From Thioalkalivibrio sp. ALJ12 (lineage in GTDB: Bacteria; Pseudomonadota; Gammaproteobacteria; Ectothiorhodospirales; Ectothiorhodospiraceae), in assembly GCF_000378305.1 (NCBI RefSeq), contig NZ_KB899538.1, positions 744,001-808,000 on the forward strand: a DNA stretch of 64,000 nucleotides. Reading direction: 5' to 3'. Made by a program: the position numbers and the translations under genes. Below are positions 4,927 through 15,128 of the stretch, piece by piece. Within the stretch, counting starts at the first letter, position 1, and the number at the start of each line of letters is the position of its first letter. The notes beneath the pieces are model-generated. The model was not told the origin of the DNA and did not search any database. It worked only from the letters and a program-made list of their open reading frames with translations.

Positions 4927-5360
4927 GGTTTCGCCGGCTATTCCTCGGGGGTGTGCTCGTCGTCAGGTTCGCATGATAGCCCAGGGTCGGGGCGCAACAC
5001 GTCATTGCGGGACGCCGCAGCCGATGCGGCGAGCCCCGGTGGTCTCCGGGGCGGACGCCGGGGTTGCCCGTGGAGATCGCCACGTCGCTTCGCTCCTCGC
5101 GATGACGCTACTTTCTACCTCCCCGTCCTTGCGAGGAGCCGGGGGCGGCGAAGCAATCGCTATCCGTCAGCCTCCGGTCGCGGGATGGTGTCCGGGTGCT
5201 GCCAGGTCATTGCGAGCGCAGCGAAGCAATCTCCAGGAACTGCCACCAGAACACCGCATCAAGCGATTGCTTCGCTGCGCTCGCAATGACGGGTTTTGGG
5301 GCACTGCAAACAAAACGGGCCCCGTCAGGGGCCCGTTTGAACGTTCCGCCGGGTGGCGGG
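4927..5360. repeat. spacer with REP-like palindromic repeats between dnaG and gltB
   Basis: 434 bp without a gene. It contains three degenerate units of the widespread GTCATTGCGAG.../...GAAGCAATC palindromic family. A near-perfect 26-bp inverted pair lies at 5206-5231 and 5265-5290, separated by 33 bp. A looser pair spans 5001-5106 (GTCATTGCG ... CTCGCGATGAC), and a further unit sits at 5125-5160. The gltB terminator follows at 5313-5338. These genes converge in neither direction: dnaG reads away on the minus strand and gltB ends here. The spacer is the inferred left breakpoint of the inversion described in the findings. A weak -10 (TATCAT on the minus strand near 4976) might serve dnaG; its -35 is poor. 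Confidence 0.75.
5313..5338 (-). terminator. rho-independent terminator of gltB
   Basis: Perfect 11-bp stem AAACGGGCCCC / GGGGCCCGTTT with the tetraloop GTCA, about 22 bp past the gltB stop. On the minus strand the stem is followed by TTTTGTTTGC, so it acts as a terminator for minus-strand transcription. Confidence 0.85.
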
Positions 5361-8300
5361 TCAGGCGGCCTGGCGCAGGTTGGCCAGCAGGCCCCGGAGT
5401 TCGGAGGCCTTGGGCTTCACCAGCCAGAACGAGCCCTGGTAGTGGTCGAACTGCTCGAGGATTTCGCGGCCCCAGGCGCTGTCGGTCTCGTGCACGAATT
5501 CCGTGATGAGCTCCTCCAGGTAGTTGCGGTGGGCCTCCATGTCCTCGGTGTCGAGGCGGTGCAGGTCGATCAGCTCGTTGTTGATGCGGTCCGGGAAGTC
5601 GTTCTCCCGGTCCAGCACGAACGCGAAGCCGCCGGTCATGCCCGCGCCGAAGTTGATGCCGGTGTTGCCCAGCACCACCATCACGCCGCCGGTCATGTAC
5701 TCGCAGCCGTGGTCGCCGATGCCTTCCACCACGGCGATCGCGCCGGAGTTGCGCACTCCGAAGCGTTCGCCGCACTGGCCGGCCGCGAACAGCTTGCCGC
5801 CGGTTGCGCCATACAGGCAGGTATTGCCCATGATGGTGGTGTCCTGGCTGGCGAAGCCCGAGCCTTCCGGCGGACGGATCACCAGCTTGCCGCCGGTCAT
5901 GCCCTTGCCGACGTAGTCGTTGGCATCGCCTTCCAGGTACAGGTGCAGGCCGCCGGCGTTCCAGACGCCGAAGCTCTGCCCGGCCGTGCCTTTCATGCGC
6001 ACGGTGATCGGGGCATCGGACATGCCCTGGTTGCCGTGGCGCTTGGCGATCTCGCCGGACAGGCGCGCGCCGATCGAGCGGTCGGTGTTGGCAACGTCGA
6101 AGCGGTATTCGCCACCGGCCTTGTTCTCGATGGCCTCGAGCATCTCGGCGACCATCTTCTCGGCCAGCTCGCCCTTGTCGAACGGCTCGTTCTTCGGCTC
6201 CTTGCAGAAGCGCGGCTTGTCGTCGAGGTCGCCGCTGGCCAGCAGGCCGTTCAGGTCCAGGTGCTGCTGCTTCGGCGTCTCGCCCGGCAGGATCTCCAGC
6301 AGATCGGTACGGCCGATCAGATCCGTCAGGCTGCGCACGCCCAGCTTCGCCATCCACTCGCGGGTCTCGCGGGCGACGAACTGGAAGTAGTGCATGACCA
6401 TCTCGGGCAGGCCGATGAAGTGGTTCATGCGCAGCACCTTGTCCTGCGTAGCGACACCCGTTGCGCAGTTGTTCAGGTGACAGATCCTCAGGTACTTGCA
6501 GCCGAGCGCGACCATCGGGCCGGTGCCGAAGCCGAAGCTCTCGGCACCCAGGATCGCCGCCTTGATTACGTCGAGGCCGGTCTTCAGGCCGCCATCGGTC
6601 TGCAGGCGCACCTTGTCGCGGAGATCGTTGCCGCGCAGGGTCGCGTGGGTCTCGGTCAGGCCCAGCTCCCACGGGGTGCCGGCGTACTTCACCGAGGTCA
6701 GCGGGCTGGCGCCGGTGCCGCCGTCGTAACCGGAGATGGTGATCAGGTCGGCGTAGGCCTTGGCCACGCCGGCCGCGATGGTGCCGACACCGGCCTCGGA
6801 GACCAGCTTCACCGAGACCAGCGCATCCGGGTTGACCTGCTTGAGGTCGAAGATCAGCTGCGCCAGGTCCTCGATGGAGTAGATGTCGTGGTGCGGCGGC
6901 GGCGAGATCAGGGCCACGCCCGGATTCGAGTAGCGCAGCTCCGCAATCATCTTGTTGACCTTGTGGCCCGGCAGCTGACCGCCCTCGCCGGGCTTCGCGC
7001 CCTGGGCGACCTTGATCTGCAGCACCTCGGCGTTGACCAGGTAGTGCGGGGTCACGCCGAAGCGGCCGGAGGCCACCTGCTTGATCTTGGACATGCGCTC
7101 GGTGCCGTAGCGGGAAACGGCCTCGCCGCCTTCGCCGGAGTTGGAGCGCCCGCCCAGGCGGTTCATTGCGGTGGCCAGGGCCTCGTGGGCCTCCGGCGAC
7201 AGCGCGCCCAGGCTCATGCCGGCGGAGTCGAAGCGCGGCAGGATCTCGGCCTCGGACTCGACCTCGTCCAGCGCGATCGGCTCGATGTCGTCGCGGACCT
7301 TCAGCAGGTCGCGCAGCACGGTCACCGGGCGCTCGTTCACCAGATCCGCATATTCCTTGTATACGCCGTAGTCGCCGGACTGCACGGCGCGGTGCAGGGT
7401 CTGGATCACGTCCGGGTTGTAGGCGTGGTACTCACCACCGTGGACGTACTTCAGCAGGCCGCCCTGGCCGGCGCTCTTGCGCGGGTTCCAGGCGCGTTTG
7501 GACAGCGTCTCCAGGTCCGCCTCGATATCGGCGAAGCGGGTGCCCTTGATACGGCTGGTGGTGCCGGTGAAGCAGGTGTCCACGACCTCGTCGGCCAGGC
7601 CGACGATCTCGAACAGCTGCGCGCCGCGGTAGCTGGCGATGGTGGAGATGCCCATCTTCGACAGGATCTTGAACAGGCCCTTGTTGATGCCCTTGCGGTA
7701 GTTCTGCGCCAGGGTCAGCGGGTCCGCGTTCGGGATCTCGCCGGACTCGCACATGCCGTGCAGCGCGGAGTAGGCCAGGTACGGGTAGATCGCGGTGGCG
7801 CCATAGCCGAGCAGGACCGCGAAGTGGTGTGGGTCGCGCACGGTGGCGGTCTCGGCGACGATGTTGGCGTCGGTGCGCAGCTTGGCGCGGATCAGGGCGT
7901 GATGCACCGCGCCCACGGCCAGCGCGGCCGGGATCGGGCGGCGTTCCGGGTCGATGCCGCGGTCCGACAGCACCAGCACCACGGCACCGCCGCGCACGGC
8001 CTCCACCGCGTTTGCGGTCAGGGCCTTCACGGCGTCTTCCAGGGAGTCGGCATGGACGTCGTAGTTCAGGTCCATGCGCTCGACGCGGAAGGCGTCTTCG
8101 GTCTGGTTGCACAATTCGCGGAACTTGGCCTCGGACAGCACCGGGGAGTCGGATACCAGGCGGTGGGCGTGGTCCGGGGTCTCCTCGAACAGGTTCTGCT
8201 CGCGGCCGAAGCAGGTCTCCAGCGACATCACGATGCTCTCGCGCAGCGGGTCGATCGCCGGGTTGGTGACCTGGGCGAACTGCTGGCGGAAGTAGTCGAA

Positions 8301-14580: not shown

Positions 14581-15030
14581 ATGTCGCTCAAGGCCCGGTT
14601 GCAGGATGACGTCAAGCAGGCCATGCGGGCCCGGGAGAAGGAGCGCCTTGGGGCGTTGCGCCTGATCCAGGCCGAGGTCTCGCAGTTCGAGGTCGACGAG
14701 CGGCGCGAAGCCGACGACGACGCGGTGCTGGCCATCCTGAACCGGATGCTCAAGCAGCGTCGCGACTCCATCGACCAGTACCGCAAGGGCGGTCGCGAGG
14801 ACCTGGCCGAGCGCGAGGCCGCCGAGATCACGGTGATCGAGGCCTACATGCCCGAGCCGCTGGGCGACGCCGAGCTGGAGCAGATGATCGGCGAGGCGAT
14901 CGCCGAGACCGGCGCGGCCGGTCCCAGCGATATGGGCAAGGTGATGGGCGTGCTCAAGCCCCGGGTCTTCGGCCGCGCGGACATGGGCGTCGTCAGTCAG
15001 AAGGTCCGTACCGCGCTGGGGATTTCTTGA
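14581..15030 (+). CDS. yqeY: GatB/YqeY domain-containing protein, 149 aa
   Basis: Small soluble all-helical protein related to the tail domain of the GatB amidotransferase subunit. Its cellular role is not firmly known; a link to tRNA-dependent amidation is assumed from the fold. The sequence MSLKARLQDDVKQAMRAREK, MLKQRRDSIDQYRKGGREDL and a C-terminal GPSDMGKVMGVLKPRVFGRADM is typical and full length. It is the normal companion of rpsU and dnaG. The next 98 bp lead to gltD and hold the inferred right inversion breakpoint. Confidence 0.92.
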   Translation: MSLKARLQDDVKQAMRAREKERLGALRLIQAEVSQFEVDERREADDDAVLAILNRMLKQRRDSIDQYRKGGREDLAEREAAEITVIEAYMPEPLGDAELEQMIGEAIAETGAAGPSDMGKVMGVLKPRVFGRADMGVVSQKVRTALGIS

Positions 15031-15128
15031 CCGTTACGCTCGGTTGAGCGAAACGTTCCTTTCCTGAACGCATGAACGGTTGAACCCCGTGGCGTCATGC
15101 CGCCGGTTCCCGTCGGAGCGAGTGATCC

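Follow-up and report, generated by a model that had tools for sequence, protein, structure and literature searches.

In gammaproteobacteria, the macromolecular synthesis operon rpsU-(yqeY)-dnaG-rpoD joins a ribosomal protein, primase and the main sigma factor, and is usually treated as a conserved unit. A second known run, the Pseudomonas-type locus pilMNOPQ-aroK-aroB-damX-gltB-gltD-hemE, carries side by side the genes for the two subunits of glutamate synthase (GOGAT). Here, we analysed a 64,000-nt stretch of the Thioalkalivibrio sp. ALJ12 genome (contig NZ_KB899538.1, positions 744,001 to 808,000; hereafter the window), in which both units are split. With A1 standing for aroB-dgt-damX-gltB, A2 for gltD-hemE, B1 for rpsU-yqeY and B2 for dnaG-rpoD, the window reads –B2 –A1 +B1 +A2, followed by X(–) mrcA(–) pilMNOPQ(+) aroK(+). 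An earlier note on this DNA had given the same order and strands for the ten genes from rpoD to hemE; coordinates and family models, the latter backing all ten names, agree, and the GOGAT genes gltB and gltD do lie on opposite strands. Its explanation, a single inversion of ~10 kb, fared less well. The layout very probably goes back to two or more episodes of rearrangement that differ in age, an exchange of operon tails and a later inversion, and the locus descends, in derived form and without being typical of it, from a nested arrangement present in other families.

This nested arrangement reads tsaD(–) rpsU yqeY gltD hemE X(–) mrcA(–) pilMNOPQ aroK aroB dgt damX gltB dnaG, i.e. in circularly permuted form the old gltBD locus occupies the interior of the former rpsU-dnaG-rpoD operon. 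In the sister genus g3 (G031, G034 and G067), to whose type Thioalkalivibrio HL-EbGR7 also belongs, plsY(+) precedes tsaD(–), rpoD follows dnaG, and both junctions named in the earlier note as inversion breakpoints, gltB-dnaG and yqeY-gltD, are present. The order from rpsU through gltB into dnaG recurs in six other families (G172, G171, G196, G132, G190 and G199), with aroK preceding aroB in all six and tsaD beside rpsU in five. rpoD follows dnaG in G172, G171 and G196; the G199 stretch ends in dnaG. dgt or damX went undetected in some nested genomes (G190, G199, G196). Two genomes (G191, G203) possess both junctions spread over two contigs, and four (G033, G090, G102, G200) have the nest minus gltB and gltD, with yqeY next to hemE and damX next to dnaG; in G120, yqeY and hemE are likewise adjacent and the run is readable up to dgt. 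By eye, the yqeY-gltD junction was recognised in at least 16 of the 91 gltD-bearing genomes, window included, among 185 genomes of the class searched. Comparison of the best 80 of 595 named GltD loci revealed gltB-gltD in 74 cases, yqeY-gltD in five and neither neighbour in one.

The window shares with this nested locus both junctions, the placement of hemE next to X and mrcA, and the pilMNOPQ-aroK run that follows. Missing from it are two nested traits lost in this genus, namely tsaD beside rpsU and aroK before aroB. The window's order was found in all 14 other Thioalkalivibrio genomes with a gltD match; a contig break falls within damX in G009 and G021. By coordinates, and counting the genome of the window, aroB and yqeY lie head to head in 27 of the genus's 30 genomes; of the remaining three, G006 and G008 are without a match to aroB or yqeY and G028 has them on separate contigs. 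None of the 17 genomes from other genera of the family shows this head-to-head pair. Conversely, tsaD lies beside rpsU/yqeY, in divergent orientation, in 15 of those 17 (G060 and G032 have no yqeY match), as opposed to none of the 26 Thioalkalivibrio genomes with both matches. The divergent aroB-rpsU junction is the most recent of the junctions and was seen in no other genus. Its gap spans 128–181 nt in 19 of 20 genomes measured, the exception being G016 with 2,699 nt. In that genome (contig C37; L082:14098–16828), the ~2.7 kb correspond to an insertion in the divergent region. Three genomes (G003, G016, G017) display the same order with gltB and gltD both absent. Because the order recurs across independent same-genus assemblies and the window is internal to a contig of 1.57 Mb, it is neither chance nor assembly artefact, and an assembly join at the breakpoints, named in the earlier note as a possible refutation, is ruled out.

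In the outgroups, both loci are intact. gltB adjoins gltD in each of the 12 genomes of the class that were fetched because yqeY and gltD lay apart (G071, G158, G216, G183, G114, G135, G157, G068, G130, G205, G170, G080), in further gltD-bearing genomes of the class (G055, G057, G053, G046, G043) and in G148; gltB-gltD-hemE also occurs at three betaproteobacterial loci (L127, L132, L146). An intact rpsU-yqeY-dnaG-rpoD operon was read in ten genomes (G055, G046, G071, G135, G157, G170, G053, G057, G130, G148), all except G057 with tsaD beside rpsU, and a tRNA-Met gene follows rpoD in the three that were checked (G055, G046, G170). On contig C14 of G148 (L284–L286), pilQ-aroK-aroB-dgt lies ~5 kb downstream of the intact rpsU-yqeY-dnaG-rpoD, with gltB-gltD ~18 kb beyond, all in the same direction. 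This genome was considered as an intermediate of the ancient exchange and rejected, as both operons are intact there.

Two steps would lead from this ancestral state to the window. At the root of a large clade of gammaproteobacteria, an exchange between the yqeY-dnaG and gltB-gltD intergenic points would have yielded rpsU-yqeY-gltD-hemE and aroB-dgt-damX-gltB-dnaG-rpoD, leaving X-mrcA-pil-aroK-aroB-damX-gltB-gltD-hemE, circularly permuted, between yqeY and dnaG; the nested order would need one further step joining hemE to X-mrcA. The exchange may have proceeded in one of two ways: either loci facing opposite directions underwent two inversions in a row, or a circle was excised and subsequently reintegrated. 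In G130 (~56 kb apart) and G055 (~257 kb apart), the loci occupy opposite strands of one contig, and two inversions would therefore be enough; where they lie near each other in the same direction, as in G148, a circle would do, so that both routes are conceivable. On present evidence we lean, with some reserve, towards one reciprocal exchange having swapped the tails of two essential, stable operons in the ancestor of a multi-family clade, with the permuted locus as a rare, clade-marking character and the GOGAT genes since lost jointly from both sites in several lineages.

In the second step, placed in the ancestor of this genus, ~12 kb from rpsU to aroK would have been inverted relative to aroB..rpoD. 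This would have broken tsaD-rpsU and aroK-aroB, created the divergent aroB-rpsU region and put the glutamate synthase genes on opposite strands, with tsaD also moving away. The rpsU..aroK segment does differ in orientation between window and nested genomes, and the genus-specific step is best read as an inversion of this segment, presumably a single one. One of its ends may lie between 14,147 and 14,209, i.e. between aroB and a promoter-like pair ahead of rpsU, because this pair resembles those of g3 and G172.

The earlier note had instead derived the layout from rpoD– dnaG– yqeY– rpsU– / aroB+ dgt+ damX+ gltB+ gltD+ hemE+ by one inversion of ~10 kb with breakpoints at dnaG/gltB and yqeY/gltD. 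Flipping 5361–15030 formally restores dnaG-yqeY-rpsU and gltB-gltD, and parts of the argument hold: both junctions are non-ancestral, two operons were split and an inversion took part. The uncoupling of dnaG-rpoD from rpsU is equally real, yet true of the nested clade as a whole and not specific to this genus. What does not hold is that flipping the 10-kb block made the junctions. Such a history requires them to be no older than the genus and to come with an rpsU-aroB neighbourhood, but both pre-exist in g3 and six other families without that adjacency. It fails because its two breakpoints predate the head-to-head junction that it must have inherited; otherwise, those lineages would need to have restored tsaD-rpsU and aroK-aroB by chance. 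The comparison with relatives that the note had suggested gave the outcome that the note itself had named as a refutation: close relatives have this order in common, and its predicted ancestor appears in no genome examined. This head-to-head ancestor with both operons intact appears in none of the gene orders read, nor, by eye, among the matches listed in the family and class coordinate comparisons; among those listed for 185 genomes of the class, the window's own is the only head-to-head yqeY-aroB pair. We further inspected the 25 longest of 163 inverted-repeat pairs in 4800–15400. None links 4927–5360 to 15031–15128, the nearest (I21) pairing 5130–5152 with 15360–15382 in gltD (23 nt, 78% identity), and a repeat-mediated inversion across both junctions was rejected. 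Altogether, a single 10-kb inversion is highly improbable.

Palindromes in the dnaG-gltB gap could alternatively drive a recurrent, reversible inversion, with both orientations coexisting. The gap does harbor a perfect 26-nt inverted repeat (arms 5206–5231 and 5265–5290, 33 nt apart) together with related pieces between 5140 and 5290, and parts of it have relatives genome-wide (29 matches scored, two of them the gap itself). However, neither of two motifs sought on both strands turns up anywhere else in the window, the other junction included; just eight of 15 gaps contain any of the motifs searched, with presence differing between species, yet the order is identical in all; and a single orientation is seen in every readable assembly of the genus (27 of 30). 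A flip-flopping locus is thus scarcely credible.

For the older step, it matters whether the nested state had a single origin. It could instead have arisen several times, for example through recurrent recombination at identical intergenic sites, or the entire locus could have been passed on by transfer. We placed 60 entries on a tree from up to 13 concatenated proteins, scoring as nested-type those with yqeY-gltD, yqeY-hemE or the derived order. The tree was built from genes of these same loci, gltB and gltD included, and not from an independent marker set; many entries fill less than half of the columns, and a composition test flags many. Thirty of the 34 nested-type entries form one clade (Shimodaira–Hasegawa-like approximate likelihood ratio test, 99) with Thioalkalivibrio deep within it, i.e. 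this genus groups phylogenetically with nested genomes. G191, G202, G203 and G042 fall outside; a tree built with FastTree resembled this one, leaving G191, G203 and G042 outside. At least four changes are needed on the tree, three of which are forced by the starred branches, as would be expected from repeated origin or transfer. However, constraining all 34 entries to one clade raised the log-likelihood by 56.4 and was not rejected (approximately unbiased test, p = 0.84). Moreover, G042 sits on a very long branch, it and G202 fill 20% of columns, and reaching an identical circular permutation by independent exchanges would be a strong coincidence. Repeated origin or whole-locus transfer hence appears unlikely.

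Several observations nevertheless weigh against the two-step history. The four nested-type genomes outside the main clade make more than one origin possible, as far as a quick tree goes. No aroB was found after pilQ in G108, no mrcA or pil after hemE in the stretches read from G202 and G042, no tsaD ahead of rpsU in G196, and no rpoD in the 5–9.5 kb read after dnaG in G132 and G190. G032, from within this family, shows no rpoD close to its dnaG and lacks a yqeY match. G065, G058 and G061 keep aroB and dnaG together, with yqeY distant or on another contig; in genus g5, all ten genomes have aroB and dnaG no more than 3 kb apart in the same direction, with yqeY distant or on another contig in most and the complete nest read only in G033. 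The tsaD-aroK junction expected from a clean inversion of rpsU..aroK was not seen. Instead, tsaD lies on the far side of rpoD at distances of ~95 kb (G001), 97 kb (G005), 104 kb (G000), 110 kb (G029), 187 kb (G013), 309 kb (G012) and, if the contig is circular, ~564 kb (G010), and a further move of tsaD would therefore be needed. An intermediate of the ancient tail exchange was present in no genome examined. Finally, the promoter and terminator calls considered below were made by eye.

Judged from these putative signals, the displaced units look insulated, not reprogrammed. Toward rpsU, TTTGCA (14210–14215) and TACCAT (14233–14238), separated by 17 nt, form a promoter-like pair, and a similar one precedes rpsU in G034, G031, G067 and G172; rpsU may thus have taken its promoter along. 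gltB appears to possess a terminator, as a terminator-like hairpin lies within about 5310–5339, and dnaG may use its own –10-like box, ATGATA at 4973–4978 (TATCAT on the minus strand). By eye, a GC-rich hairpin followed by T behind gltB and TATCAT shortly upstream of dnaG are shared by all 15 same-genus gaps (171–1,474 nt), with a spacer of variable length between them. In the gltB-dnaG gaps of the g3 genomes G034, G031 and G067, the TATCAT box was not seen, and a different palindrome is present; the reading as a –10-like box is therefore limited to this genus, and a general dnaG promoter across the nested clade was rejected. From the sequence, little functional change would be expected from the rearrangement. 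Repetitive extragenic palindromic doublets forming hairpins (REPINs) are described for Thioalkalivibrio HL-EbGR7 (PMC3116915); the palindromic element of the window may or may not be of their kind.

Where family genomes lack the native gltB and gltD, a gltB-gltD pair of a different type is present. For instance, in G012 this pair (G012:C1:1888072–1894141; L274) has gltD directly behind gltB, and its gltB scored best among solved structures against 7mfm (1672 bits; runner-up, 1376). Among the 47 family genomes, native gltB (≥73% identity) was detected in 20 and second-type gltD (≥77%) in 25. The two are nearly mutually exclusive, with both found only in G030. G017 harbors a partial second-type gltB, and its sole gltD is of a third type at 49%; G019 and G066, both incomplete, match neither native gltB nor second-type gltD. 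At the place of gltB between damX and dnaG, G012 (L080:480–13094) and likewise G010 (L081) contain ~12 kb with genes for an FecCD permease, a CobB/CobQ-like amidotransferase and a TonB-dependent receptor, in a cluster order common to both genomes.

Features of the rearranged locus, with positions counted from the first nucleotide of the window.
Feature	Position	Strand	Remarks
tRNA-Met	833–909	–	adjoins rpoD on its downstream side
rpoD (B2)	1016–2926	–	Sigma-70 domains
dnaG, primase (B2)	3142–4926	–	Pfam DnaG domains
gltB-dnaG junction gap	4927–5360		older than the genus
gltB, glutamate synthase large subunit (A1)	5361–9830	–	NF008730, 2622.8 bits
damX (A1)	9986–11830	–	SPOR and AAA domain
dgt (A1)	11842–13032	–	family model
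aroB (A1)	13022–14146	–	family model; ancestral downstream neighbour of aroK, now on the other strand
aroB-rpsU head-to-head gap	14147–14322		genus-specific junction
rpsU (B1)	14323–14538	+	Ribosomal_S21
yqeY (B1)	14581–15030	+	YqeY PF09424, 184.8 bits
yqeY-gltD junction	15031–15128		older than the genus
gltD (A2)	15129–16532	+	TIGR01318
hemE (A2)	16529–17599	+	URO-D
X, conserved protein inside the inverted segment	17621–18343	–	no family match
mrcA-type penicillin-binding protein inside the inverted segment	18250–20622	–	family model
pilMNOPQ and aroK	20745–26292	+	PilM and shikimate kinase domains, gene order; aroK is the end of the inverted segment

X gave no Pfam or NCBIfam match at E 0.001 and adjoins mrcA in nested and intact-operon genomes alike. 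Within damX, a 12-nt tandem repeat encodes a proline-glutamate repeat tract (10323–10465). The tRNA-Met gene 3′ of rpoD was likewise found in L077, L079, L213, L231, L233, L085, L092, L098, L266, L217, L060, L064 and L081; it was not found in L083, L075 and L067, stretches that stop at or just beyond rpoD.

The rearrangement is well supported and ordinary in kind, yet older and of more steps than first proposed. It points to a large bacterial group in which the macromolecular synthesis operon was cut in two and persisted. It also cautions that where one genome seems mendable by one neat inversion, the appearance can mislead, as outgroups date the junctions differently. As a rare marker, the nested order might help to place families and is possibly useful for marking the clade, and the split gltB and gltD offer a natural test of operon linkage for subunit balance and joint loss. 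In the literature searched, no paper was recognisable as being about this gene order; most subscription papers lay outside reach, so it may have been published.

Compared with the known systems, the window matches the macromolecular synthesis operon in genes and order within each half, with the difference that ~9.4 kb separates rpsU-yqeY from dnaG-rpoD, that the two halves are on opposite strands and that their neighbours are other ones. To the Pseudomonas-type locus it corresponds in genes and in order within the pieces, except that its aroB..gltB run is no longer preceded by aroK or followed by gltD and that its GOGAT genes occupy opposite strands. With the nested locus of g3 and the other families it has in common yqeY-gltD, gltB-dnaG, the pil-aroK run and a hemE adjoining X and mrcA. 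In the g3-type version, the main genes share one strand except for X, mrcA and the neighbouring tsaD, with tsaD flanking rpsU and aroK preceding aroB; the window, in contrast, has the segment from rpsU to aroK inverted.

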